IMG/VR virus record: IMGVR_UViG_3300031616_000005
Coordinates: 1-60,905 of that record
DNA: 60,905 nt
From: a virus
Strand: one strand, 5' to 3'
This document shows, piece by piece, positions 4,209-36,189 of this stretch. Position 1 is the first letter of the stretch. Every line of letters begins with the position of its first letter. The notes below the pieces were generated by a model. The model made no database searches and was not told the origin of the DNA. It saw only the letters and a program-made list of their open reading frames with translations. The translations under genes and the position numbers were made by a program.

Positions 4209-4963
4209 CGGTGGGCATGCACGAAATTCTCCTGGGAGAGTCGTACCGTCCCAACGACACGGTGGTGCAGGGCTCTATTTGGCCTGATGAGCACTTTCCC
4301 TCGGCCGTAGCCCGCAACGGTGAGGGCCGTCTGGTTCTCCTCGCCGGCCGCCGCCGAGTGCTGCGCGCCCTGGCCGGACGGGTGGACCGAACGAGGGTTT
4401 ACGTGATCGAAGACTGGCAGGGCTTTGTCGCCTGGCTGGCGCTCGATGCCGAGACGTCTGCCCCGGTCAGGCGAATGAAGCCGTCCGAGATCGCGCGTTT
4501 CCTGGACCGGGCCGCGCTCCTGCTCGGCTTCACCACGAAGCAGGTCGGCAAGGTGGACGTGGTTGCGGCTGGAGTCGAGGGTTTCTCCAGGGTGGACGAC
4601 GTGGCCACTCTGCGGAACCTGGCCCGACGAGCCCGGATGAGCGAAGACCCGCGCATCTGGGACGACCTGGAGCAGGTTGACCAGGGGCTGCTGAAGCCGT
4701 CCTCGGTGCAGAACCGCGTCTTGGACCGTACCAGGATCACCGAGACCGTGCAGCGCCGTACGGCCGCCGAACAGCGGGCCCGTTTCGCTAAGGCCGTGCC
4801 GGCGCTGATCGGCTATACCGAGGGCCTGAAAGACATGGGCCAGCTGGCCGACGACATCACCGCGAGTGAACGCAGCGACTGGGAGCAGGGGCTGCGCCGT
4901 GCAAGCCGGCAGCTTTACAAGATCATCAAAACGTTCCGCACAGAGGGAGAAGAAACCGCATGA
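4205..4963 (+). CDS. ParB-like protein
   Basis: 252 residues from GTG 4205, which overlaps the HNH stop (GTGA). ATG 4217 is an alternative start. The N-terminal ~70 residues resemble a ParB/Srx-type domain (LLAGRRRVLRALAGRV near residue 45). The middle holds a helix-turn-helix-like helical stretch (residues ~85-150) and the C-terminus a coiled coil ending RRASRQLYKIIKTF. Its stop overlaps the start of the DGQHR gene, so both are made together. DNA binding is likely; catalytic (CTPase or nuclease) activity is unproven. Confidence 0.5.
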   Translation: MTVGMHEILLGESYRPNDTVVQGSIWPDEHFPSAVARNGEGRLVLLAGRRRVLRALAGRVDRTRVYVIEDWQGFVAWLALDAETSAPVRRMKPSEIARFLDRAALLLGFTTKQVGKVDVVAAGVEGFSRVDDVATLRNLARRARMSEDPRIWDDLEQVDQGLLKPSSVQNRVLDRTRITETVQRRTAAEQRARFAKAVPALIGYTEGLKDMGQLADDITASERSDWEQGLRRASRQLYKIIKTFRTEGEETA

Positions 4964-5739
4964 GGACTATCGCCAGCATCACCGCCGCGCAGGTTCAGGT
5001 CGACCCGACCGTCCAGCGCACCCTGGACCCCAAGCGGGTCGCGGCCATCGTCGCCAAGCTGAACACGGACGCGCTCGGCCTTCCGCTGGTGTCCCAGCGT
5101 GAGGACGAGCCGCAGTACTTCGTCATCGACGGGCAGCACCGGTTCGCCGCGCTCATCGCGGCCGACCTCGCCGACTATCCGGTGGAGGTCGGCCTCTTCA
5201 CGGGGCTGACCATCGAGCAGGAAGCGGAGCTGTTCCGCATCCACAACGCCACCAAGGCGCTGTCGTCCGTCGACAAGTTCCGGATCAGCCTCGTGGAGGG
5301 CGACAAAGAGAGCCGGGCCATCGACGCCATCGTGATCAAGAATGGGTACACGACCAAGCCCGGCTCTGCCTCGTCGTGCACGGCGGTGGCGACCCTGCGG
5401 GCCATTTACCGTCGCGACACCGGCGCCGCGCTCGACCGGGCGCTCGTGGTCATCGCGGAAACATGGGGGGCGCGCCGCTACGCCACCCACGAGCACAACC
5501 TCCGCGCCCTGGCGAACCTCTTCACCCGCTACGGCGGTGCGATCGACGTGGGCCGTCTCGTGACGAAGATGCGCTCCGACGGCGACTCGGCCGACCCTGA
5601 GCTGTTCGTCGGGCACCTGCGCAGTCTCGGCCAGGCCAGCGGTACCAATCCTGCCGACGCGGGCGCCGGGAAGCTCGTCACGATCTACAACAAGTCCTAC
5701 CAGGAGAAGAACCCGAACCGGCTTCCTGCCTGGAGGTAG
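4960..5739 (+). CDS. DGQHR-type ParB-like protein
   Basis: 259 residues, start overlapping the previous stop (ATGA). DGQHRFAAL at residues 57-65 is the signature of DGQHR/ParB-like domains, a fold found in ParB nucleases, in DndB-like proteins linked to DNA sulfur modification, and in many phages. A preceding strand (YFVI) and following helices fit the fold. The rest is helical (residues 110-240). Pairing with another ParB-like gene and an HNH gene suggests a DNA-processing or genome-protection unit. The exact reaction is unknown. Confidence 0.6.
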   Translation: MRTIASITAAQVQVDPTVQRTLDPKRVAAIVAKLNTDALGLPLVSQREDEPQYFVIDGQHRFAALIAADLADYPVEVGLFTGLTIEQEAELFRIHNATKALSSVDKFRISLVEGDKESRAIDAIVIKNGYTTKPGSASSCTAVATLRAIYRRDTGAALDRALVVIAETWGARRYATHEHNLRALANLFTRYGGAIDVGRLVTKMRSDGDSADPELFVGHLRSLGQASGTNPADAGAGKLVTIYNKSYQEKNPNRLPAWR

Positions 5740-6579: not shown

Positions 6580-6603
6580 AGAGCAACCACCAAGGGAGTG
6601 CGC

Positions 6604-7650
6604 ATGAGCGACAACATCGACATGACGGTCACCGGCGGCGCGTTCGCGGCCGTCCGCGTCGGCGGCTGGCACCACCTCGGCAAGGTCAGCGACGTTCAGC
6701 TGTCCACCCTGGAGCTGCTTCAGATGGGCGGCTGCGACTTCCCGATCCACCGGGGCGTCATCCGCATAGACGAGCTGGTGGAGACCGCCGAGGGCTTCCC
6801 ACCGGTGCGCTACCAGGCCCAGGACGAGAGGATGACCTCGATCTACCGGGTCCACCCGGAGACCGGTGAAGCCCAGATCCTCGGCACCGCCTCGGCCAAG
6901 TACCCGCTGTGGAGCCCCAAGGACACCTTCGTGGGCTTCGGCGACAACATCCTGGAGCACCTCGGGGCGCCCGTGAAGGCGTCCACGGCCGGCGCGCTCG
7001 ACGGCGGCCGGCAGGTGTTCATGGGCTTCGAGCTGCCGCAGGATATCCGCCTCGGCACCGACGAGACCGTTCAGCTCTGGCTCCTCGTCCACACGAGCTT
7101 CGACCAGTCGGCGATCACCCGGGCGGCCATCACGCCCATCCGGCCCGTCTGCGCGAACACCGTTGCGGCCGGCATCGCGGCAGCGCTGAGCACCTTCACC
7201 GTCAAGAAGACCGCGAACGCCGACATCCAGGAAGCTCAGGCCAAGGCAGCGCTGGAGCTGATCCCGGACTACGTGGAGGCGTACACCGAGCGGGCGACCG
7301 CGCTGCTGGAGACCGAGGTCACCAAGCGCCAGTTCCTGGAGATCATCACCGATTTGTGGGGCCCCGGCGAGGACGCCCGCAAGCAGTCCGTCGACCTCTG
7401 GAACGCCAAGGCAGACGTGCTGCTCGACCTCTTCCAGAACGCCGACACGCAGGCCAACATCCGCAACACCGCGTGGGGCGCGTACAACGCCGTCGTGGAG
7501 CGCCAGGACTGGCTCTCCGACGTCGCACCCGGCGTCAAACCGCAGGACGCGGACGCGGTCCGCTTCGCCCGGTCCGTCGGCATCACCGACGGGCGCAAGA
7601 TCGCCCAGCCCAAGGATGACATCCTGGAGCGCCTGCTCGCGCTGGTCTGA
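6604..7650 (+). CDS. DUF932 phage/plasmid-like protein
   Basis: 348 residues, ATG 6604 with GGGAG upstream. It matches the DUF932 (TIGR03299) family: WHHLGKV near the N-terminus, AKYPLWSPKDTFVGFGDNI (residues ~100-118), LWLLVHTSFDQSAITRAAIT and PVCANTVAAGI (~158-190), and a helical C-terminus. Family members occur in phages and conjugative plasmids; the biochemical role is not established, though a link to replication or anti-restriction is often suggested. It is the only gene between a promoter-operator and a strong terminator, so it is independently controlled. Confidence 0.85.
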   Translation: MSDNIDMTVTGGAFAAVRVGGWHHLGKVSDVQLSTLELLQMGGCDFPIHRGVIRIDELVETAEGFPPVRYQAQDERMTSIYRVHPETGEAQILGTASAKYPLWSPKDTFVGFGDNILEHLGAPVKASTAGALDGGRQVFMGFELPQDIRLGTDETVQLWLLVHTSFDQSAITRAAITPIRPVCANTVAAGIAAALSTFTVKKTANADIQEAQAKAALELIPDYVEAYTERATALLETEVTKRQFLEIITDLWGPGEDARKQSVDLWNAKADVLLDLFQNADTQANIRNTAWGAYNAVVERQDWLSDVAPGVKPQDADAVRFARSVGITDGRKIAQPKDDILERLLALV

Positions 7651-7803: not shown

Positions 7804-8589
7804 ATGACCGATCCCGTCGTGCCGATCCTGGAAGACATCCTGCCCGGCCTGCACACTCCCGCCGACGACAAGGCGGCAGCCCTCGCCGAGGTTCCCGCCG
7901 GGTACCCGCGCATCGTCCCCGCCGGTGAAGACCTCAGCACCATGAACCCCGACACCATGACCAGCGTCACCGACGTGCGGACCCCGGCCGGGCTGCTGCC
8001 CGTGGAGAAGATCCTCGCCGGTCAGCTGGGCGTCGACCCGGACCACCTGCGGTTGGTCAAGGCGCACATCTCCGACTTCGGCGCCGTCACCCTCTGGCAG
8101 CTGCTCGACCTCGACGGCGTGACCGTGGAGGCCCACTACATCGCCTCCTACGTGGCCGGCACCGACCGATTGCAGCTCGTGTACGCGAAGAAGCTGGAGG
8201 ACGGCCTACGGCGGTATGAGACCGTCGGGCTGGCCCACGGCGTGCCGCCGCCGGACGAGTTGGCGCTCTTCGCGCCCGAGGCGGTCACCGGTCCGCCGCT
8301 GCCCCCGCTGGCAGAGAAGATCTGGGGCGCGCTCGTGGTGAAGTGGACGCGGGCGAAGCAGCCGGCGCGCGGTGGATCCACGATGTGCGCGGACTGCGTC
8401 ACCCGGGTCCAGGAGCTGGGTGTCGCGACCGCGCCGGTGCCGCGCCGCGCCATGTGGAAGCGCACCGGGCCCAACGGCGACCTCATGCTGTGCAGCCAGG
8501 ACGCCCAGAACCACCGCGACGAGGACGCCAAGGTCCAGCGGGAGTACGGACAGCGCCATGCGCACGACCAGCATCAAGCCAGACACTGA
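7804..8589 (+). CDS. Hypothetical protein with C-terminal zinc-like Cys motifs
   Basis: 261 residues, ATG with AAGGAG upstream. The N-terminal ~190 residues form a mixed alpha/beta domain without a recognised family. Near residue 198 CADCVTRVQ begins a possible zinc ribbon with a later Cys in LMLCSQDA (~residue 230), and the tail is His-rich. It is first in a two-gene operon with the membrane protein at 8608. Confidence 0.6.
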   Translation: MTDPVVPILEDILPGLHTPADDKAAALAEVPAGYPRIVPAGEDLSTMNPDTMTSVTDVRTPAGLLPVEKILAGQLGVDPDHLRLVKAHISDFGAVTLWQLLDLDGVTVEAHYIASYVAGTDRLQLVYAKKLEDGLRRYETVGLAHGVPPPDELALFAPEAVTGPPLPPLAEKIWGALVVKWTRAKQPARGGSTMCADCVTRVQELGVATAPVPRRAMWKRTGPNGDLMLCSQDAQNHRDEDAKVQREYGQRHAHDQHQARH

Positions 8590-8607
8590 CCCAAAGGGAG
8601 AGAGACC

Positions 8608-8931
8608 ATGTCCAATCGAAACCAGTCCGCCGGGGGCGGCGTCAGCTTCGGCTTCCTGCTGTTCCTGCTGTTTCTCGGCCTCAAGCTCGGTCACGTGATC
8701 ACCTGGTCGTGGTGGTGGGTCACCGCACCGCTGTGGGCCCCGCTCGCGGCCGTCATCGTGTTCATCCTGGGCTGCGCCCTCGTCGCTGGCCTGTGCTCGA
8801 TCGGCATCAGCACCGTCGACCGCAAGGAGGCCAAGGAGCGCTCAGAGCGGGTCGCGGCCCGTCGTGTTCGCGATGGGTTGCCGGCCCGACCGGCACCGGC
8901 CCGGAGGGAACACAGCACCTGGCGAGACTGA
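8608..8931 (+). CDS. Two-helix membrane protein
   Basis: 107 residues. Two hydrophobic segments (residues ~12-30 and ~43-70) with a Trp-rich hairpin between them, then a strongly basic tail from residue ~75. GGGAGAG precedes the ATG. No family recognised. It ends just before the promoter of the tRNA-like locus. Confidence 0.65.
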   Translation: MSNRNQSAGGGVSFGFLLFLLFLGLKLGHVITWSWWWVTAPLWAPLAAVIVFILGCALVAGLCSIGISTVDRKEAKERSERVAARRVRDGLPARPAPARREHSTWRD

Positions 8932-8944
8932 GAAACGCCCAGGC

Positions 8945-8987
8945 TTGACGAAGCCGGGCACACCCTGTATGGTTGAGCTACACAACG
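8945..8987 (+). promoter_or_regulatory. Promoter-operator copy 6, drives the tRNA-like locus
   Basis: -35 TTGACG (8945-8950), 17-base spacer, -10 TATGGT (8968-8973): the best promoter boxes in the window. The operator left arm is perfect (CCCTGTATG, 8963-8971) but the right arm is poor (TACACAACG), so repression may be weaker here. Confidence 0.75.
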
Positions 8988-9104
8988 GGGACGCCTGATG
9001 TGAGGTCAGACGGAGGCAACGGGCCACCGCGAGGTGGACAACGCCGCCGATTTGGAGCCGGCCGGCTCTGAGCCCGGGTCACTACGGGAAGACCGAAAGG
9101 TGAC

Positions 9105-9166
9105 CGTGCGTAAACTCACGGCGAGGGCCTTCACGGGCTGGGTCGGTTCGATTCCGACGCGTGCGC
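9105..9166 (+). tRNA. tRNA-like element 1 (atypical)
   Basis: T-arm GTCGG-TTCGATT-CCGAC is perfect. A weak acceptor pairing CGTGCGT/GCGTGCG relies on G-T pairs. The middle is compressed to a mini-arm GGCC-TTCACG-GGCT. An alternative fold uses CCGTG...CACGG (about 9104-9121) as the anticodon arm and makes the GGCC hairpin a long variable arm. Confidence 0.25.
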
Positions 9167-9310
9167 GAATGGAACGGCGAGACGGCGGCCTTACCCACCA
9201 CTGCATTGCCACAGCCGTAAGGACTCGGGGTCGACACCGAGAACGACCACCAGCCTGATCAGCGGGTGGGTCAAAATCCCGGATTGGGTCCCGAGGTGGC
9301 ACCTCGGGGG

Positions 9311-9382
9311 TTCGAGGACTTGGTGACTGGGTTCGCCACTGCCCACGCGGGCAGGCAGGTCGGTTCGATTCCGGCACTCGAC
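9311..9382 (+). tRNA. tRNA-like element 2 (atypical anticodon loop)
   Basis: D-arm TGGTG-ACTGGGTT-CGCCA, anticodon arm CTGCC-CACGCG-GGCAG and T-arm GTCGG-TTCGATT-CCGGC all pair, and the acceptor pairs at five central positions. The anticodon loop has 6 bases and no T at position 33, so no anticodon can be assigned safely. Confidence 0.35.
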
Positions 9383-9549
9383 ACGCACGGTAACAATTCG
9401 GGTGACACCAGGCCCGGAGTGATCAGACGCAAGACCCTAGGGCACGCCATGCGCTCGCCAGCCCGCTTCGGCCGTCCGGCGAGTTGCCAGCAAACCCCTT
9501 CGGCAGGCGCCCTCGGTCACACCGGAAACCCAGCGCACCGTGGACCCAA

Positions 9550-9627
9550 GTGCGGAGCCCACCTCGACACGCGTGGGGGAGCGTCGGGTAACCAGGCCCA
9601 TCGGAGGTTCGACTCCTCCGGACGCAC
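9550..9627 (+). tRNA. tRNA-like element 3 (atypical)
   Basis: T-arm GGAGG-TTCGACT-CCTCC is perfect. The acceptor pairs only as GTGCG/CGCAC. The middle reads like a tRNA-Met arm lacking part of its loop (GTCGGG then TAACC). Confidence 0.25.
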
Positions 9628-9934
9628 GGCGCCAACTCACCAGGCGGGTGAGGTCAGAACCAATAGACCGCCGTGTACGGCACGGGTTCGCCCCCGCATC
9701 CAGGCCAGAGAGGGTCTGGGGAGTGCAAGCGCACGGCCCCTCGGCCGGTCAGGTCCGGACCGCCGGAACACCCGAGGGAGCGCGCCCCGTTTGGGCGGGG
9801 AGTGGCGGGTCAGTACCGCCGTTGCACACGCAGTACGGGAGGGAAAACCGATACAGGCCAGAGGTCGCCACCAGGGGATTCACTGAGGCGCTGTGCTGCT
9901 GGTAGACGCTCCGGGTGCTAGCCCCGGGGTCGCG

Positions 9935-10061
9935 GTGGACCGGTAGCCAAGCCGGCCAGAGGATGCGGGACCCTCCATCGCACGCAAGGGCCGCTGTTGG
10001 CGCAGCGCACCTGCATGGCGTAAGCCCAGGCGCGGCGGGTTCGATTTCCCGCACGGTCCAC
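9935..10061 (+). tRNA. tRNA-like element 4 (over-long, two possible 5' halves)
   Basis: GTGGACCG (9935-9942) pairs perfectly with CGGTCCAC (10054-10061). A second candidate 5' strand, GGGCCGC at 9988, also pairs with ACGGTCC except at one position. The T-arm GCGGG/CCCGC has an 8-base loop, one base too many. A GGC-GTAA-GCC hairpin sits in the anticodon region. The length of 127 bases is far above normal. Confidence 0.3.
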
Positions 10062-10188
10062 GCAAGCCCAGGGAAGAGCGGTGAAGTCCAAGCCGAGAGG
10101 TGGGAGTAGCCGTCTGGGTAGCTGGTAGCAGGCGAAGGAACGTAAGGCCAGGCGGTAGCGCTGCTGTCCTGGAAACGCGACCGGAGCC

Positions 10189-10260
10189 CATCGGGTGCAG
10201 CATGTGGCGAAGTGCGCAGGGCCCCAAGCCCTGAGGTCCGGTTCGAATCCGGCCCCGATA
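10189..10260 (+). tRNA. tRNA-like element 5 (5-base anticodon loop)
   Basis: The acceptor ATCGGG/CCCGAT pairs over 6 bp, and the T-arm CCGG-TTCGAAT-CCGG is good. The anticodon arm folds best as AGGGC-CCCAA-GCCCT, a 5-base loop where 7 is universal. It could be a tRNA-Trp (CCA) arm missing two bases. Confidence 0.35.
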
Positions 10261-10350
10261 CGGATCAACCCGCTGTGTGTCGACCTGTGCGGGGAGATCA
10301 AGCCAGGACCCTGCAAGTCCTGGACAAGCCAAGCGCTGATCACGCTTGGA

Positions 10351-10417
10351 ATGGGCGTAGCTCAATGGCAGAGCAGGGGCAGTAGCCCTTGATGCGGGTT
10401 CGAGTCCCGCCGTCCAG
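10351..10417 (+). tRNA. tRNA-like element 6 (67 bases, short anticodon arm)
   Basis: A textbook TA plus D-arm GCTC-AATGGCA-GAGC and a perfect T-arm GCGGG-TTCGAGT-CCCGC, with a 6-bp acceptor TGGGCG/CGTCCA. Only 19 bases separate the D and T stems (22-23 expected). They fold as AGGGGC-AGTA-GCCCTT, leaving no normal anticodon loop. Confidence 0.45.
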
Positions 10418-10498
10418 CGCGAAGGGAGAGGCACGGCAGTGGCGCGCCATGTGGGTACCTGAGAACCGGGCTACGACGTTGCCAAGGCGCGACCCGGA

Positions 10499-10568
10499 CG
10501 GCCTGAAGGTGGATAGGAGCCACCGCCGTGCACAACACGGAGACCCTCGTTCGAATCGGGGCTGGCCA
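10499..10568 (+). tRNA. tRNA-like element 7 (5-base anticodon loop)
   Basis: D-arm GGTGG-ATAGGAG-CCACC, anticodon stem CCGTG/CACGG and T-arm CCTCG-TTCGAAT-CGGGG all pair. The acceptor pairs at 5 of 7 positions. The anticodon loop is CACAA, five bases without T33; it would be a tRNA-Val (CAC) loop if two bases were restored. Confidence 0.35.
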
Positions 10569-10639
10569 CGCACCAAGCCGGTTGACCTGTCCCGGACTGC
10601 CGCAAGGCGACGTAGCGGAGGAAGGGGAACGTCGTACAT

Positions 10640-10747
10640 GGCCGCATAGCTCACTGGCAGAGCATCCCGTCTCGGAAGGGTGCACACCCCGGGCGCCTGG
10701 GGCACTGGGCGAGGGAAGGTATCGGGGTTCAAATCCCTGGGCGGCCT
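10640..10747 (+). tRNA. tRNA-like element 8 (insertion in the anticodon region)
   Basis: Acceptor GGCCGC/GCGGCC, perfect D-arm GCTC-ACTGGCA-GAGC and T-arm CGGGG-TTCAAAT-CCCTG. About 59 bases lie between D and T stems (22-23 expected), including CTCGGAA, which looks like a loop with anticodon CGG, and further GC-rich hairpins. It is either an intron-like insertion or an enlarged variable region. Confidence 0.45.
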
Positions 10748-10776
10748 CGCAAGATCACATCTCTGGGAGGAGAAGT

Positions 10777-10860
10777 ATGGACGCATGGGAAATCGGGGCC
10801 GTGATCGCGTTGATCATCCTGGCGCTGTCGGGCCTGCACACTCTGTTCAAGCGCAAGTGA
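10777..10860 (+). CDS. 27-residue single-helix membrane protein
   Basis: ATG 10777 follows GGGAGGAG. Residues 5-21 are hydrophobic and the end is basic (FKRK), so the C-terminus is probably cytoplasmic. Its TGA overlaps the GTG of the lipoprotein gene (GTGA), so the two are translationally coupled. Too short for family assignment. Confidence 0.6.
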   Translation: MDAWEIGAVIALIILALSGLHTLFKRK

Positions 10861-11135
10861 GCCGGCGGATCCTGCTCGTGCCGGCGGCGGCGCTCCTGGC
10901 GTTCGCCCTGAGCGCGTGCAGTGCGGCTCACACCAGCGCCCCGGACGTGGCGCCCTCGGACGCCCACCCGGGCACGCACGCCCAGGCCATTCAGATGCCC
11001 GACGGCTTCCGCAACGTCGCTTTCAGCTGCCACGGGACCGTGGGCGTCTACGTGACGTCCTACGGCCTCAACGACAGCCAGGGGCGCGTGTCGGGGATCG
11101 CCGTGCTGAAGGATGACCCGAACTGCGCCGGATAA
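10857..11135 (+). CDS. Putative lipoprotein
   Basis: 92 residues. A classical lipoprotein signal: RR, a hydrophobic core LLVPAAALLAFAL and lipobox LSAC with the modified Cys at about residue 20. The mature part is small with two further Cys (SCHG and the C-terminal CAG), possibly a disulfide. It would be anchored outside the membrane. Phage lipoproteins of this size often exclude superinfecting phages, but that role is inferred, not shown. It is coupled to the upstream 27-residue membrane protein. Confidence 0.7.
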   Translation: MSRRILLVPAAALLAFALSACSAAHTSAPDVAPSDAHPGTHAQAIQMPDGFRNVAFSCHGTVGVYVTSYGLNDSQGRVSGIAVLKDDPNCAG

Positions 11136-11142
11136 TCGAGCC

Positions 11143-11418
11143 ATGACCGAGTTCACCAGGGTCCGCCCCGCGTCCGTGCGACGCGGGGCGGTCTCCCGCT
11201 TCAACGACAACACCATGGAGTACGTCATCGCGGGCGCCCGCGTCCTGACCGCCGTGGCCGCCCTGGGCGTCCTCGCGGCCCTCATCGGGTGCATCTGGGT
11301 GGGCGGGTGGAGCTGGGCGCTCACGGGTGCTCTGGCGCTTCTCGTGGCGGCCGGCGCCGGTTGGTTCGGTTTCAAGGTCAACGGAAACAGGGAGTGGTTC
11401 GATGAGTCGACCGAGTAG
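11143..11418 (+). CDS. Two-helix membrane protein
   Basis: 91 residues. Two hydrophobic segments (~28-50 and ~54-75) joined by a GGW turn; basic N-terminus and acidic C-terminus. The last codons overlap the next start at 11402. No family recognised. Confidence 0.65.
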   Translation: MTEFTRVRPASVRRGAVSRFNDNTMEYVIAGARVLTAVAALGVLAALIGCIWVGGWSWALTGALALLVAAGAGWFGFKVNGNREWFDESTE

Positions 11419-17588: not shown

Positions 17589-17915
17589 ATGGTCCGGACC
17601 GCGTCCGACAACCGCACCGACGACGAGGACAAGCCGCGTCGCATGACCTGGGACGGCACCCCCGAGACCGCTCACAAGCTGCGCGTCTGGTCCGCCGACG
17701 AATCGCTCAATACGCGCTTCGCGTGGATCTCCCAGCTCCACACCCCCGATGAGGCCCGGACGCTCGTGCAGCGACCCTTCCCCGACTCGGCCGAATGGAT
17801 GCCCACGCCCGTGGGTTCCGTCATCGAGCGCCTCGGCCGAGAGGACGACGCGCCCCTGCGGGTCATCCTGCCCCCGAAGCCGCTCGATCCCATCGCAGTA
17901 CTGGAGGAACAATGA
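17589..17915 (+). CDS. 108-residue hypothetical protein
   Basis: ATG 17589 with AGGAGGAG upstream. Charged N-terminus, mixed alpha/beta body; no motif. Its TGA overlaps the next ATG (ATGA). Confidence 0.55.
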   Translation: MVRTASDNRTDDEDKPRRMTWDGTPETAHKLRVWSADESLNTRFAWISQLHTPDEARTLVQRPFPDSAEWMPTPVGSVIERLGREDDAPLRVILPPKPLDPIAVLEEQ

Positions 17916-18490
17916 CCCACCCCGGAACACCCCGTGACGTCGACCTGGACAGCTGGCTCGACGGCATCGGCTTCCACCCGGCCGACACCATGGCCAAGCA
18001 GGTCGGTCACCAGGTGGCCCGTGAGTTCGTCGCCAACATGGGCGCCGTGCTGCACGAGTTGCTGCCGGCCGGGCGCGACAAGGCCATGGTCTTTATTGTG
18101 CTGGAGGACGTGCTTTTGCGCGCCAACCGGGCGCTCGCGCTCGGCGGTGGTCCAGCTGACCAGAGCGACGAGGCGATCGCCGAGCTGGCAGCCCAGGTCG
18201 CGGCCAGCCCCATCGGCCTGCCCCGCGACCGCCGATACGAAGCCGAGCAGCGCGGCGAGGTGACGGAGGCGGTCGTAGTGGTCGAGGGCCAGCCGGCGCC
18301 GCAGTGGCGGGTCGTGTCTGTCGTCGAGGGCGTCACCGTCTACGACCGGCCCGGCGGCGTGCTGCTCCAGACGGGCACCTCGGAGCCCGTCGAGCTGAGC
18401 GAGACGAACTCGGTCACCGATCTCATGGCCCACCTCCTGGAGGCGTGCAAGCGGGCTTGGCCGGGAGGTGGAAAAGATGGCGAGGACTGA
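17912..18490 (+). CDS. 192-residue hypothetical protein
   Basis: Helical N-terminal ~115 residues (HQVAREFVANMGAVLHELL, VFIVLEDVLLRANRALAL) and a beta-rich middle (QWRVVSVVEGVTVYDRPGG). Coupled to both neighbours. No family recognised. Confidence 0.55.
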   Translation: MTHPGTPRDVDLDSWLDGIGFHPADTMAKQVGHQVAREFVANMGAVLHELLPAGRDKAMVFIVLEDVLLRANRALALGGGPADQSDEAIAELAAQVAASPIGLPRDRRYEAEQRGEVTEAVVVVEGQPAPQWRVVSVVEGVTVYDRPGGVLLQTGTSEPVELSETNSVTDLMAHLLEACKRAWPGGGKDGED

Positions 18491-24179: not shown

Positions 24180-24251
24180 GGCGGGATGGAGCAGTGGAAG
24201 CTTGCCAGCCTCATAAGCTGGAGGTCGCCTGTTCGACTCAGGCTCCCGCCT
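24180..24251 (+). tRNA. tRNA with anticodon CAT (Met or lysidine-type Ile)
   Basis: A complete, canonical cloverleaf of 72 bases: acceptor GGCGGGA/TCCCGCC, D-arm GAGC/GCTT, anticodon stem CCAGC/GCTGG with loop CTCATAA, variable AGGTC, T-arm GCCTG-TTCGACT-CAGGC. It is not an initiator: position 1 pairs with 72 and the stem lacks GGG/CCC. The CCA end is not encoded. It stands alone between terminase and portal genes and contrasts with the abnormal elements at 9000-10776. Confidence 0.92.
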
Positions 24252-26681: not shown

Positions 26682-27516
26682 CGACCCGACTCCCTGGCTG
26701 CCGCAGAAGTTCCAGGCGTTCAGCGCCATCGTCGCGGCCGAGGCGCAGCTCTTCCACAAGATCATGGACCTGCTCGGAAGGTGGGCCACAAGGCTCCGGT
26801 CAGCCGTCTTCGGCTCGACCTGGGCGGCCAAGCCCATCGTGCCCGGCGCCGCGCCGTCCCTGATCGACCCCATCGGTGTGCGCTCCACGATGAGCTGGTT
26901 CGACGCCCAGCTGTCTGACGACGTGCTGGTGGAGGTCCGGGAAATCTTCGACTGGGCCTCGGGCGACATCGCCGACCCGGAGCCGAACGGCCTCTACCGC
27001 GCGCAGCAGGCGGTCAACGCGGCCCGCAACCGGCTCGTCGGCATCCCGGACAGCGTGTTCCGTGACGTGCAGGCCCAGACGCTCAAGGCGACCACCGAAG
27101 GCTGGTCGATCGACGAGCTGGCCGAACAGGTGGACGCCATCCTCGCCGAGGCCGGCGCCGACCGGTGGCGCAACCGGGCCCGGACCATCGCGCGTACCGA
27201 GGCGGTCGCCGCGTACAACGGCGGCACCTACTCCGGCTTCCTGTCCTACGCCGGACAGGTGACCGGGGACTGGGAGAAGGTCTGGCTGGAGACCCACGAC
27301 CACCGCACCCGCACCACGCACCGTGAACACTCCGGTTTCGGCGGCCAGCGCGTACCGCTCACGGGCATGTTCAACGCCAACGGCGTCGACATGCTGTACC
27401 CCGGATGGCCGCTCGGCCCGGCAGCCGAGGTCATCAACTGCCGGTGCTCTCTCCTGCTCGCCCACAAAGGTGAGATCATCGACTTCAGCAACCGGCACTA
27501 CAAGGGGGGCGCGTGA
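26674..27516 (+). CDS. MuF-like head morphogenesis protein
   Basis: 280 residues. Residues ~95-265 show the Mu gpF/SPP1 gp7 fold: RARTIARTEAVAAYNGG, TWLETHDHRTR-like WLETHDHRTRTTH, SGQRVPL-like GGQRVPLTG, and the C-terminal PGWPLGPAAEVINCRC with the conserved Cys pair. Family members are minor capsid proteins ejected or retained near the portal. Overlaps the next gene by 4 bases, so the 1575-residue protein is co-translated, as in MuF-toxin arrangements. Confidence 0.85.
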   Translation: MADDPTPWLPQKFQAFSAIVAAEAQLFHKIMDLLGRWATRLRSAVFGSTWAAKPIVPGAAPSLIDPIGVRSTMSWFDAQLSDDVLVEVREIFDWASGDIADPEPNGLYRAQQAVNAARNRLVGIPDSVFRDVQAQTLKATTEGWSIDELAEQVDAILAEAGADRWRNRARTIARTEAVAAYNGGTYSGFLSYAGQVTGDWEKVWLETHDHRTRTTHREHSGFGGQRVPLTGMFNANGVDMLYPGWPLGPAAEVINCRCSLLLAHKGEIIDFSNRHYKGGA

Positions 27517-30500
27517 ACGCGACCATCGGCCTACTCGCCTACGGCCTGCGTCCGTCCCCGCTCGCCGAGGAGGCGCCCACGTGGCTGCTCGCGGCCGGCG
27601 CGTACGGCTCGATGTCCTGGGACCTCCAGATGCAGGCGGCGCACGCCGGCTGCCACATCTCGGCGTTCTGCCGTAACCCGCTGCACCCCGGCCCCTGCAA
27701 GGGCTGGAAGCACCACCTGGGCCTGGTCTCCCCCGGGGCCCTGCACGCCCTGGAAAAGGTGCGTCACGACAAGCTGGAGGAGCGGCGTAAGGCCAAGGTC
27801 GATGCGCTGACCAAGGCCGGACATCCCGTGCCGAAGAAACTGCTCACGCCGATCGTCTACGACCCGGCGAAGAACAAGCACATCGGCCCCAACTCCGGCC
27901 CGGCCGTCACCCCGGGCTCGCCGAACCTCACGCCGGCAGCGGCGAAGAAGGCGGTCGCGGCCGTCCCGACGGCAAACGACCTCCGCAACAAGGTCAACAC
28001 TCGCCGCGCCGCGCTGCCCACGCCCAACGCCCCCGCCGCCGCCGCACCCGGCACGCCGGCAGTCCCAAATGCACCGGCGGCCCCCGGCGCGCTCCCGCAG
28101 CACACTCCCGAGCAGCTGGCGGCGGCCTACTCGATCGGCCTACTCATGCACGTCGGCGTGCCACAGCAGCAGGCCGAGGCGGAACGCGGCGCGCTCGAAC
28201 GTCAGTTTGCCCAGGCCATCGCCAACCCCGACCCCAAAGACCTTCAGGGGATGGCTAACCAGTTCACAAGCAAGCTGATCGCCAAGGCCGAGAAGGACTC
28301 TGGCAAGAAGCTCTACTCCGGGCATTCCACCGTCAGTCAGGCAATGAACGAGGAGTTGGTGCGCAAGTTCAAGGGCGACCACGCCGCGCCTACCCCGGTC
28401 ACCGACGCGATCCTGAAGGGTGACACCGACACCGCGCACACTGAGGCGTTGAACGTCAAGAAGGGTGCGCTTCAGGCGAAGAAGAGCATCAGCGCGGCGA
28501 AGGGCGCGGCGACCCGGGCGGCCAACAAGCAGGCGGCGGCCGTGCCGGCGGCGCCACTTCCATCGGGTACCCCCGCGCACGTTCAGAACGCCGTGGCCAT
28601 CGCGCACCGGTCCGGCCCCCGGGCGGGTGTGGCCAAGGTCCAGTTGGACGCGTACAACAACCTCACCAAGGCCGAGTTCGACGCGCTGCCGGACGCCACC
28701 AAGAAGCGCATCGCCGACGATCTAAAGGCCGCGCACGGCAAATTCCTGGACCCGAGCAAGAAGCGCTCCGTCGAGCACACCATGGGTCGGCTCGGCGTGG
28801 GTCCACATCCGGCGCCCAGCGCCACCCCGGGCGGCGTCACGCCCAGTACTCCCGCTCCCGCTCGGTCGCCGATCGGCGTCCCACACGGTCCCGGCGCCCC
28901 CGCCGCGCCGTCCGCCCCCGCGCCGAAGGTCACGCCGCCCTCCTCCGGCGGCTTCACGCCGGCCGACATCGGCACCATGAAGCACCTCGGCAAGAAGCAC
29001 AGCGACCGGCTCGCCGACTTCGAGAGCCTCACCCACGGCCAGCTGACCGGGCTGTCGGACCAGCAGCGCGCGGCGCTGCACGGCGACCTCATGAACATCT
29101 CGGCGCGCTCGCCATCAGCGGATCACCGCAAGCGGGCGCAGCAGATGGTCGACCGGCTCAACGCCGCGCAGCCGACGACGCCGGCCAGCCAGGGGGCGGC
29201 GGTCAAGGCCGCCAATGCCCAGGGCTTCGCGGACAAGCTCGACGCGATCCGCGCCGAGACCGACCCGCGCAAGATCGCGTCCGCTTTGACGGCGGCCCGG
29301 TACGCGGCCACCGAGCCGGACCACAAGAAGGCTCTGGACGAGCTGGCGGGCGAGGTGGCGGGCAACGGCAGCCACCCGGCATGGCTGCGCGCCCACGCCT
29401 ACATGATCAACGACGACAACCGGACCGCCCTGCCCAAGAGCGCCGATCTGTCGATGGCGATCCACACCGCGAGCAAGGCGCCGTCCAGCAACGGCCGCAT
29501 CTTCGCGACCACCCACGACCTGGAGAACCTGCTCGCGCCCGACAGGAAGGAGCTGGATCGCCTGCCGCCGGTGCTGCGCGACGCCATCCAGGCCCGCCGT
29601 ACCGAGGCGCTCAAGGACACCTTCGACCCGGTCCACGGTGCCACCCTGCAAGCCCGGGAGAGCGCCCTCGTCACGGTGTTCGGCGACCCGCAGGGCAAGC
29701 ACGACATGACCCGGTACGAGGCCCTCACGCCCGAGGGTCGCAAGGTCGTGGACGAGGGCCTCACGCAGCACGTCGTCAACAAGTGGAACGGCTCGACCGG
29801 GAACGACGCCTCCCGCGCGTCCGCCTGGCAGTCGGTCGACGACAACCTCAAGGGCCGGTCGTACAGCGGCGTTCAGCAGGACGCGATCAAGGCCGCCCAG
29901 GCTACGCACCTACCCGCCGACCAGCGACTCTCCGACTTCAAGAAGCTCACAGCGAGCGACTATCAGGCGCTGCCCGACGCCCACAAGTCGGCCATCTCGA
30001 TGCCGATCCTCACGTGGGCGGGCAGCAGCCCGGACCCGACGGTGAAGCGCGACTCCATGCACACGCTCGCGAAGCTTTCCGGTCTCTACCCGGATTACGC
30101 CCTCGACCGCCACCAGAACGCGGTGTTGGCGGCCACCGTCGACCGGCCGTTTCTCAGCCCCAAGGACCGCCTGGACCGGTACTACCGGCTGACCGCAGCG
30201 GATTACGGCTTCCTCAAGAAGGACGACCAGGGCGTCATCGCGCGGGACATGCAGAGCCTCGCCGATGACCGCTCGGGCGGCCTCAGCCTGGAAGAACGCC
30301 ACGACATGCAGTACCACCACGACACCATCACGCCGGGTGGGGTCGGGCGCTACACCCCTGAGCAGCGTAAGGCGATCACGTTCTCCGACCCGGGCGTCTC
30401 GAAGGACGTCGGCGACCGGCTCAGCGCGTACGGCCAGCTGAACAAGGGCACCTTCGACGCGCTGCCGGTCGCGTACCAGGACGCGATCATGCATGACATG

Positions 30501-32240
30501 TCGATCATCTCGGTGTCGCACCCGTCGGCGCACGACGCGATCATGGTCAAGTTCAACCCGTCGTATGTCCCGTCGAACAACATCAAGCCGACCAACGTCT
30601 CCGGCAACGTCGACCCGGCGCTCAAGGACGCCGTGGAGACGCTGTACGGCGTACACCCACAGTCGGGGACCGCCGCGCACCAGCTGAAGGTCTACGGCGC
30701 GCTCAAGAAGCAGCACTTCGACCAGCTCAACTCCGACGAGCAGTCCACGCTACTGGGCGACCTGTCGTACATCGCGACCACGTCCAAGTCTCAGTCGAGC
30801 AAGGACCGCGCCGAGCGGTTGATCAACAACTTCACACCGCCGGGCACCCCGTACGGTCAGCCCAACGTGCAGGCCGCCATCCCGCCGTCCAACGCGGTCG
30901 CCGGACAGGTCCGCGACCCCAACCCGGCCGGCAAGACCGGTCTCCTCGTCCAGTCCAAGGACAAGGGCCTGTCCGGGGATGGCTGGACCACCACCCCGAG
31001 TGGAAAGCGTGTGTGGGGCAAGTACGGCGCCTCCGGCGTGCTCCTGCGCCACGTCGGCCCGGACGGCAAAGAGCGCTTCCTGATGGTCCAGCGTGGCCCG
31101 GCCATCAGCGACCCCGGCAAGTGGCAGTTCCCCGGTGGCGCGATCGACTCCAAGGAGACCGCGTACACCGGCGGTACCCGCGAAGTCATCGAAGAACTGG
31201 GCTTCAAGGATGGTGCCCTCGACAACGCGGCCGTCCACGGCCACCACGAGGCGGGCCTCCCGGGCTCCACCTGGAAGTACACGAGCATTGCGGCCACCGT
31301 CCCGCACCAGCTCGTGCCCGACCTCAGCGACCCCCACGCCCGCGCCGAGACCTCCGACGCGAAGTGGATGACGCGCGAAGAGATCGCGAAGCTCGACACC
31401 AACGGCAAGCTCCTGGCCCCGCTCGCGGGCGGCAAGCTGGAGCAGAACGTCCTGAGCCTGTTCCCGCCACACGCCCAGACCGTGGGCCGTCCGGCGCCGC
31501 GCACGAGCCGCCCAGGCCGGCTCAGCGGGACGCCGAGCATCGCCAACGTGGTCCCGAGCAAGCCGCACAAGCAGACCCGCGCCAAGAACCTGATCAAGGA
31601 CACGCAGGCCGAGAAGGATCTCAGCGGCCAGATCAAGACGCTACGCAAGCAGTACGCCGGCAAGACGGCGGACGACCGGCTCGCCGCCATCGGCTCCCTC
31701 CAGGGCTTCGACGAGACGCCCACCGTGCTGCCGAAGCACGAGGTGGACCGGCTCCTCGCGAGCGGCGACTACGTGGAGGCGTGGCGCGGCGTGTACGGCG
31801 GCGGCGGCAAGTCGGCGGCCCAGATCAACGAGGAGATGCGCAGCGGCCCCGCGTACTACGGGACCGGCATCTTCGGCAACGGGTACTACCTGGCAACCAG
31901 CAAGAGCGTTGCCCAGCAGTACGCGGACGGCTCGAAAAACTCGGTGGTCCGCATCCTCATCCCCAAGGACGCGGTCACCGTCGACCACGGCGCGGCGCTC
32001 GACGGCGCCAAGAAGTCCTATTCGTCGGTGCCGTACCGGTATCAGGCGCGGCACACCACCGGCCAGGGCTCCCTCCACGACGAGGGCCGTTGGGCGGCGG
32101 CGGCCGGCAAGGACGGCATCGTCATCGATCAGTACTCCCGCAGCCCCGGCGGCGGCGCGTCGCACGTCGCGAGCCGTGGCAAGCCCGCCTACAACTGGCT
32201 CAACCGCTCCGTGCTCATCCTCCAGGAGGCCGACAAGTGA
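27513..32240 (+). CDS. Giant virion protein: helical repeats, Nudix and ADP-ribosyltransferase-like domains
   Basis: 1575 residues. N-terminal ~110 residues hold a Cys/His patch (CHISAFCRNPLHPGPCKGWKH). Residues ~370-1110 contain about seven divergent repeats of 60-100 residues with a shared core (DRL..Y..LT...FDALP...), e.g. near 500, 800, 890 and 970. Residues ~1165-1330 are a Nudix domain with an exact box, GGAIDSKE then REVIEELGF. Residues ~1410-1575 look like an ADP-ribosyltransferase: YVEAWRGVYG (NAD-binding Arg), YYGTGIFGNGYYLATSK, and YNWLNRSVLIL at the end. It is coupled to the MuF gene. Delivery into the host with the DNA is inferred from related polyvalent phage proteins. Confidence 0.75.
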   Translation: MNATIGLLAYGLRPSPLAEEAPTWLLAAGAYGSMSWDLQMQAAHAGCHISAFCRNPLHPGPCKGWKHHLGLVSPGALHALEKVRHDKLEERRKAKVDALTKAGHPVPKKLLTPIVYDPAKNKHIGPNSGPAVTPGSPNLTPAAAKKAVAAVPTANDLRNKVNTRRAALPTPNAPAAAAPGTPAVPNAPAAPGALPQHTPEQLAAAYSIGLLMHVGVPQQQAEAERGALERQFAQAIANPDPKDLQGMANQFTSKLIAKAEKDSGKKLYSGHSTVSQAMNEELVRKFKGDHAAPTPVTDAILKGDTDTAHTEALNVKKGALQAKKSISAAKGAATRAANKQAAAVPAAPLPSGTPAHVQNAVAIAHRSGPRAGVAKVQLDAYNNLTKAEFDALPDATKKRIADDLKAAHGKFLDPSKKRSVEHTMGRLGVGPHPAPSATPGGVTPSTPAPARSPIGVPHGPGAPAAPSAPAPKVTPPSSGGFTPADIGTMKHLGKKHSDRLADFESLTHGQLTGLSDQQRAALHGDLMNISARSPSADHRKRAQQMVDRLNAAQPTTPASQGAAVKAANAQGFADKLDAIRAETDPRKIASALTAARYAATEPDHKKALDELAGEVAGNGSHPAWLRAHAYMINDDNRTALPKSADLSMAIHTASKAPSSNGRIFATTHDLENLLAPDRKELDRLPPVLRDAIQARRTEALKDTFDPVHGATLQARESALVTVFGDPQGKHDMTRYEALTPEGRKVVDEGLTQHVVNKWNGSTGNDASRASAWQSVDDNLKGRSYSGVQQDAIKAAQATHLPADQRLSDFKKLTASDYQALPDAHKSAISMPILTWAGSSPDPTVKRDSMHTLAKLSGLYPDYALDRHQNAVLAATVDRPFLSPKDRLDRYYRLTAADYGFLKKDDQGVIARDMQSLADDRSGGLSLEERHDMQYHHDTITPGGVGRYTPEQRKAITFSDPGVSKDVGDRLSAYGQLNKGTFDALPVAYQDAIMHDMSIISVSHPSAHDAIMVKFNPSYVPSNNIKPTNVSGNVDPALKDAVETLYGVHPQSGTAAHQLKVYGALKKQHFDQLNSDEQSTLLGDLSYIATTSKSQSSKDRAERLINNFTPPGTPYGQPNVQAAIPPSNAVAGQVRDPNPAGKTGLLVQSKDKGLSGDGWTTTPSGKRVWGKYGASGVLLRHVGPDGKERFLMVQRGPAISDPGKWQFPGGAIDSKETAYTGGTREVIEELGFKDGALDNAAVHGHHEAGLPGSTWKYTSIAATVPHQLVPDLSDPHARAETSDAKWMTREEIAKLDTNGKLLAPLAGGKLEQNVLSLFPPHAQTVGRPAPRTSRPGRLSGTPSIANVVPSKPHKQTRAKNLIKDTQAEKDLSGQIKTLRKQYAGKTADDRLAAIGSLQGFDETPTVLPKHEVDRLLASGDYVEAWRGVYGGGGKSAAQINEEMRSGPAYYGTGIFGNGYYLATSKSVAQQYADGSKNSVVRILIPKDAVTVDHGAALDGAKKSYSSVPYRYQARHTTGQGSLHDEGRWAAAAGKDGIVIDQYSRSPGGGASHVASRGKPAYNWLNRSVLILQEADK

Positions 32241-35607: not shown

Positions 35608-36189
35608 TCACCGGTCCGGCGTGGCCGGACGGTAGCGGATGAAGTCGAGCGTCTCGGCGTAGTCGAACTTCCCGGCGCCGGCCAGCTCCGCGACCAACTC
35701 GGCGCGGCGGGCCATCAGCAACAACCCGAGCCAGTTCCGGCCCGGCGAGCTGGCCCAGGCCGCCCCCGGGTGCTCCTCGTCCTTCGGCAGTGCCACGCCC
35801 CACACCTTGTCACCCCAGTGGGTTCCCTCGATGAGGAGCGCGTCCTCCGTCGCGAGCAGTCGGAGACCCTCCTCGCGGGCCAGGGTGAACTTCAAGCCCA
35901 GCGTGACCCGCATGACGTCGTACTTCACCCGCTCCCAGTCCGGGCGGATCCGCAGCAGGTGCCGGCCGTTCGCCTTGGCCTCGCCCGGGGTGGCGCTCGC
36001 CAGGATCTTCCGGAAGTCGACACCGGTGCGCGCCTTCATCGCCTGGAAGAAGTGCTCCCCCGTGAGCGCGACGACGCCGGCCAGGTGGAAGTGGATCGGC
36101 TCGCCCACGTAGAAGTTGCTCAGGACGCGCCACTCGTTGTCCGGCGCCTCGAAGTCGTCGAACCAGCTGATCACGTTCGGGACGCCCAT
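35608..36189 (-). CDS. NADAR/YbiA-type (DUF1768) protein
   Basis: 193 residues. Family signature: WRVLSNFYVGEPIHF (the LSNF motif) near residue 20, GEHFFQAMKA near 45, ILASATPGEAKANGR near 63, WERVKYDVMRVTLGLKF near 85, GTHWGDKVWGVAL near 122, NWLGLLLM near 152. Known members act on ADP-ribose-like N-glycosides: YbiA relatives in riboflavin-intermediate repair, others removing ADP-ribose from guanine in DNA. In a phage it could undo a host DNA-ADP-ribosylation defence or handle products of the ADP-ribosyltransferase-like protein at 27513. That link is inference. Confidence 0.85.
   Translation of the reverse strand: MGVPNVISWFDDFEAPDNEWRVLSNFYVGEPIHFHLAGVVALTGEHFFQAMKARTGVDFRKILASATPGEAKANGRHLLRIRPDWERVKYDVMRVTLGLKFTLAREEGLRLLATEDALLIEGTHWGDKVWGVALPKDEEHPGAAWASSPGRNWLGLLLMARRAELVAELAGAGKFDYAETLDFIRYRPATPDR

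Follow-up and report, generated by a model that had tools for sequence, protein, structure and literature searches.

The window analysed here is a 60,905-base virus record from IMG/VR, covered over its full length, in which the terminase, portal, capsid and tape-measure genes of a tailed phage are present. Between positions 9000 and 10776 it carries an array of tRNA-like units, with a promoter at its head and other structured RNAs between the units (Table 1). No well-scoring coding frame was observed inside the array, between the end of an open reading frame (ORF) at 8931 and a small ORF at 10777. Seven strict T-arm motifs, defined as GTTCRANYC with a stem of at least 4/5 pairs, lie in this region (at 9142, 9359, 9603, 10237, 10394, 10545 and 10723) against an expectation of 0.03 (Poisson P 4e-15), while the rest of the window contains two on both strands, one of them being that of the tRNA at 24180. 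An eighth T-arm, with an 8-nucleotide (nt) T-loop, is found at about 10035. The original prediction had described at least nine T-arm motifs here; the array proved real, and the count slightly high.

Table 1. Features of the array and its immediate flanks in the window
Feature	Position	Strand	Remarks
Protein gene with C-terminal zinc-ribbon-like domain (CxxC ... GPNG ... C)	7804..8589	+	Syntenic array marker
Small membrane protein, phrog_1374, weak holin-like	8608..8931	+	5' of array
Sigma-70-like promoter TTGACG-N17-TATGGT	8945..8973	+	Head of array
tRNA-like unit 1	9105..9168	+	T-arm 9142-9158; acceptor weak, D arm unclear
tRNA-like unit 2	9311..9382	+	T-arm 9359-9375; acceptor imperfect; anticodon-arm loop 4-6 nt
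R2, structured RNA domain	9380..9590	+	Ortholog L136 1083-1293
tRNA-like unit 3, reduced towards minihelix	9581..9627	+	5-base-pair (bp) acceptor, one hairpin, T-arm 9603-9619 (fold)
tRNA-like unit 4, 127 nt	9935..10061	+	8-bp terminal stem, long insert, 8-nt T-loop (fold)
tRNA-like unit 5	10189..10260	+	Acceptor, D and T arms; 6-bp anticodon stem, 5-nt loop CCCAA
R1, three-hairpin RNA	10258..10351	+	Loops TGTGTGTCGACCTGT, CCTGCAA, CTGATCA; conserved window/G001
tRNA-like unit 6, 67 nt	10351..10417	+	6-bp anticodon stem, 4-nt loop AGTA; Rfam tRNA 46.4 bits
tRNA-like unit 7	10499..10568	+	5-nt loop CACAA; weak acceptor (fold)
tRNA-like terminal unit 8, 107 nt	10640..10746	+	Acceptor, D and T arms; ~44-nt insert in anticodon region
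27-codon membrane-peptide ORF	10777..10860	+	Immediately 3' of array, read from sequence

The units were folded either freely or with the acceptor stem and T-arm enforced. Acceptor, D and T arms were obtained together for the units at 10351 and 10640 and in most of the constrained folds. The irregular anticodon arms that the original prediction had drawn by hand largely reappeared in the folds: the 5-base loops of units 5 and 7 were both recovered, as were the 4-base loop of the 67-base unit 6 and the inserts that enlarge units 4 and 8. For unit 2, which had been credited with a 6-base loop, the arm is abnormal but its loop is not fixed at that length. ARAGORN called only two units in the region, one at 10190 as 'Trp' with C at position 33 and one at 10351 with a 2-nt anticodon, and the normal tRNA expected at 24180 was called as tRNA-Met. 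In a scan of the whole window with Rfam, the unit at 10351 alone passed the gathering score in this region; 10640-10747 reached 33.3 bits for tRNA when the region was scanned on its own with laxer filters.

Relatives were located by searches with the capsid gene and with an alignment (A2) of six zinc-ribbon-like sequences, which was too diverse for searches of collections and effective within records. Nine records were found to carry the array, namely the window, G001, G003, G005, G007, G008, G010, G020 and G021, and capsid identity among the array-bearing IMG/VR relatives is 45-71%. The zinc-ribbon-like gene and the array are present in every record of at least 58 kb with at least 45% capsid identity, related records being possibly incomplete. 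In 9/9 this gene, the C-terminal part of which could be aligned in six phages, is followed closely by about 0.8-1.8 kb of noncoding DNA bearing tRNA-like units. The promoter is the sole promoter-like site within 8600-11200 of the window. In the 150-base interval taken where the last ORF before the array ends, TTGNNN-N17/18-TANNNT was observed in the equivalent place in all nine arrays, compared with 0.4% of random 150-base intervals from the same phages.

Across these arrays the anticodon arm is almost absent, bears a long insert or ends in a loop of 4-6 nt. A canonical anticodon loop, with a 3-nt anticodon and uridine at position 33 (U33), was given by 1/9 ARAGORN calls in the arrays as against 100/117 in controls (Fisher P 7e-6), the latter made up of 74/80 in unrelated tRNA-rich phages and 26/37 in distant capsid relatives. 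These counts were used in place of RNAfold loop statistics, which were dropped because extra pairs closed in normal 7-nt loops. The sole canonical array call is a tRNA-Lys(CTT) of G005 (L138 2767-2841), directly after the odd terminal unit, which shows that a canonical tRNA can sit within such an array. Several anticodon stems are perfect in the folds although their loops are short. Unit 5 has an ortholog in G001 (L136 1350) with the loop CCAAA on a 6-bp anticodon stem that has undergone two compensatory changes; the G001 ortholog of unit 6 has a 5-bp anticodon stem and a 6-nt loop; a further G001 unit combines a 5-bp anticodon stem and the 6-nt loop GTTCAG with all stems perfect; and the G010 unit at 442 has an 8-bp anticodon stem with a 5-nt loop. 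In two distant capsid relatives (L143, G014:36500-47000; L142, G013:7000-10500) normal tRNAs are mixed with ARAGORN units having a 2-nt 'anticodon', and these mixed sets suggest a gradient towards non-decoding arrays.

The last unit of the array keeps its acceptor, D and T arms in the window, G001, G003, G005, G007 and G010, with a D-to-T interval of 58, 61, 73, 72, 38 and 10 nt, respectively. Last units in five further phages are 59-122 nt long, the ~44-nt insert of the window's unit 8 is conserved in G001, and the last T-arm of G008 sits on what looks by eye like a bare minihelix. Over the terminal units of seven phages, G021 being the seventh, 82/84 acceptor and T cells are paired, and 8/12 of the acceptor/T pairs occur as at least two Watson-Crick types. 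The acceptor is followed by N-CG in 24/27 units (P 8e-13), and none of them has an encoded CCA. The tRNA-Met at 24180 has the same type of flank (T-CG), which is consistent with a shared 3' maturation.

The non-tRNA stretches between the units, overlooked in the original prediction, are themselves conserved structured RNAs. The alignable blocks (window/G001 and G003/G005) run through units and spacers alike, and the RNAalifold z scores of the seven blocks were -2.1, -2.8, -8.9, -5.3, -2.0, -3.0 and -4.1, with 4-12 compensatory pairs per block and no broken pair in 7/7. Capsid-gene segments of the same phage pairs, taken as a control, gave a mean z of -0.41, with 2/20 at or below -2. The block containing R1 (z -8.94, 12 compensatory pairs, 0 broken) shows identical hairpin loops on covarying stems in the window and G001. 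The R2 block (z -2.06, 10 compensatory pairs, 0 broken) has a closing helix, CGCAC (9384-9388):GTGCG (9551-9555), that spans about 165 nt and adjoins GGTAAC ... GACCCAA (GGYAAC, GACMCMA), after which comes a hairpin with a TCGAC loop. This helix covaries, reading CGAGC:GCTCG in G010 and CATGCC:GGCATG in G008 with the layout unchanged, and the R2 covariance model matched G010 (E 1.9e-5). Neither R1 nor R2 matched an Rfam family. Self-complementary hexamers are present in hairpin loops at 10258-10351 and 9250-9271 (TGATCA twice, GTCGAC once) and might form kissing loops. In addition, a 19-nt inverted repeat (9093-9111 / 9383-9401, 84% complementary) spans 271 nt and might pair into a long-range helix, in competition with the one that closes R2.

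Synteny, promoter sequence, compensatory conservation of structure, the absence of decoding loops and uniform N-CG 3' flanks without CCA are established by these comparisons. Since shape is preserved while sequence changes in nine viruses, the array looks, as far as sequence can tell, like a new working RNA system rather than a set of broken tRNAs. It is somewhat probable, in our view, that the region serves as an operon devoted to noncoding RNA: the host enzymes of tRNA maturation would act on its non-decoding tRNA-like modules, and these would release stable RNAs or be stable RNAs themselves. The acceptor/T half of a tRNA is recognised by RNase P, the 3' processing enzymes, the CCA-adding enzyme and EF-Tu. 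The array would be transcribed from its own promoter, and its modules, presumably derived from tRNAs, would have retained the acceptor stem, D-arm and T-arm (the 'elbow') and lost the decoding anticodon arm, with other conserved structured RNAs placed between them. The transcript might then be cut at the modules by host tRNA maturation, with RNase P acting on the 5' end and trimming and CCA addition on the 3' end. The modules would punctuate processing and form stable structures at the ends, so that several small stable RNAs are released. Once decoding was abandoned, the anticodon arm would be free to shrink or to be replaced. We further propose, with more reserve, that new structured RNAs and non-decoding tRNA-like modules, joined in an operon with its own promoter, constitute a new class of phage RNA system, kept throughout the lineage and having a purpose outside translation, such as the decoying of tRNA-directed immunity or the building of an RNA assembly.

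Several points speak against the processing operon. The units at 9142, 9603 and 10499 have weak or incomplete acceptor or D arms, and the covariation is drawn from two close phage pairs and sparse distant ones. In the G003/G005 blocks the observed number of compensatory pairs was reached in 27, 28 and 13 of 200 shuffles, and the R1 covariance model matched only the window and G001, which are its own two sequences. Moreover, the putative processing by RNase P and CCA addition is deduced from known substrate rules.

A less likely but credible explanation is that the units are tRNA mimics serving in counter-defence, either as elbow/acceptor-only decoys for host factors that hit the tRNA tail, acceptor or elbow, or as units immune to anticodon nucleases. 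Mimics of this kind were among the options of the original prediction, and the selection of the acceptor, D and T arms together with a non-decoding anticodon arm is compatible with them, even if it does not single them out. Evasion of tRNA-targeting defence is already known for phage tRNAs (PMC10264068; PMC11555353), and the window also encodes an Acb2/Tad1-hairpin protein near the family cut-off and a NADAR protein. However, the known evasion tRNAs still decode, and the array units cannot substitute for cleaved tRNAs; since replacement tRNAs for anticodon nucleases must decode (PMC10264068), the replacement model is unfit as it stands. A simple decoy would also leave unexplained the conserved non-tRNA RNAs between the units and the variable inserts.

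It is improbable that the region forms one large ornate RNA resembling GOLLD or ROOL, with tRNA-like domains and perhaps self-association via palindromic loops (TGATCA, GTCGAC). Two perfectly conserved palindromic R1 loops on covarying stems and the long closing helix of R2 would suit such an RNA, and there is a parallel in GOLLD and ROOL, which phages encode near tRNA islands and which assemble into RNA cages (PMC12286853). Nevertheless, no Rfam family other than tRNA was matched, GOLLD and ROOL included, folding is local to each unit, and arrays range in length from 0.8 to 1.8 kb, with units gained and lost.

Random decay of the array, another option of the original prediction, is unlikely in view of the conserved arms, promoter and inter-unit RNAs and the lost decoding loops. 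We give little credence to a decaying cluster of remnants of ordinary phage tRNAs, although some units are clearly worn, G005 has a normal tRNA-Lys, and normal and odd tRNAs are mixed in the distant capsid relatives (26/37 canonical). Neutral decay predicts mispairing everywhere, and this is contradicted by the elbow/acceptor half and several anticodon stems, which stay paired. The compensatory changes with zero broken pairs across independent phage records, the several perfect anticodon stems despite short loops, and the conservation of the inter-unit RNAs and of the promoter in 9/9 arrays also oppose it. Functional tRNAs arising by RNA splicing, editing or permutation, as in the intron-like or split tRNAs once suggested, are very improbable, for although the long inserts occupy the place of tRNA introns and the insert of unit 8 is conserved between the window and G001, orthologous units leave no common residual 7-nt U33 loop, loops of 4-6 nt are not repairable by splicing, and an RNA ligase or splicing enzyme was not found among the window proteins tested, which represent part of the genes. 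A tRNA fragment from an integration site (attP) was rejected, as it accounts for one T-arm and not for eight.

The major capsid protein of the window has distant matches only (<60% identity), in 848 GenBank phages, most of them from actinobacteria, and its relatives within bacterial genomes, in Streptomyces and Streptosporangium, are distant too. The lineage probably consists of uncultured tailed phages with hosts among soil actinobacteria. None of 50,697 phage records matched the array at the DNA level, and two flanking genes used as protein queries gave no match either, so that no GenBank phage matched the array or its flanking genes at the sensitivity applied. The zinc-ribbon-like ORF had no Pfam match and, as sole query, no match in viral contigs, and its G005 homolog had no GenBank phage match. 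Scans with DNA patterns revealed no new arrays among the loci inspected; one candidate relative, L318, with a shared 16-nt pattern and 10 T-arms in 1.5 kb, was rejected as an ordinary phage with 35 tRNAs and became a control.

Among the related records, only the window and G001 have the phrog_1374 gene 5' of the array. Tiny membrane-peptide ORFs of about 30 codons also follow the array in G001, G003 and G005 (L136, L137 and L138). Further 5' of the array, the window encodes ParB-like/DUF6551 (4960-5739) and DUF932 (6598-7650) proteins. Elsewhere, the product of ORF 17795-18490 scores 26.1 bits for the Acb2/Tad1 hairpin domain against a Pfam cut-off of 27, and might be a cyclic-nucleotide sponge against CBASS/Thoeris-type defence. 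The NADAR-domain protein (35608-36189, minus strand, E 2.6e-22), of an ADP-ribose/NAD-related family, is encoded between head genes, in a block of minus-strand genes, and a 1,575-amino-acid ORF (27513-32240), also between head genes, has a NUDIX match at residues 1176-1299.

It has long been asked why phages carry tRNAs, and nearly all proposed answers presuppose decoding. If the elbow and acceptor have been selected and decoding discarded, some phage tRNA-like genes would be kept for another role, and the lineage described here would supply natural variants for testing such non-decoding roles. The inter-unit RNAs, being without Rfam assignment, are candidate new noncoding-RNA families.

Searches of the open-licence literature for unusual anticodon loops and for tRNA-like RNAs of phages brought up no array of this kind. 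Like the tRNA clusters and tRNA array units of phages and mycobacteria (PMC10264068, PMC5966550), the array consists of tandem, one-strand, tRNA-shaped genes in actinobacterial phages. Those clusters decode, with 7-nt loops and U33 (74/80 in the control phages), whereas the array almost never does so and has conserved non-tRNA RNAs between its units. It also differs from nuclease-resistant replacement tRNAs of the van den Berg type, which are decoding-competent with an altered cleavage site, its own loops being 4-6 nt, replaced or absent. GOLLD and ROOL are large structured phage RNAs of unknown function that adjoin or contain tRNAs and form RNA cages (PMC12286853); each has one fixed fold, while the array is made of modular short units with no match to them in sequence or structure. 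Their covariance models were unmatched over this region of the window, at E values up to 10, and in seven related array loci at the gathering score. Transfer-messenger RNA (tmRNA) gave no Rfam match, and ARAGORN made one tmRNA* call, in G003, which overlaps other units and is without Rfam support. In phage T4, the stable RNAs C and D are co-transcribed with its functional tRNAs. The array would resemble this arrangement in placing stable non-tRNA RNAs among tRNA-shaped genes of a phage, but the T4 tRNAs are functional. In mascRNA and the viral tRNA-like structures, the acceptor/T half is kept for tRNA-processing enzymes and the anticodon arm is dispensable. These are eukaryotic or RNA-virus structures found as single copies, and the Rfam match to mascRNA at 10691-10746 is weak and far under threshold; the likeness, drawn with no claim of homology, lies in a tRNA half that would be retained for its processing enzymes after the anticodon arm has become dispensable.
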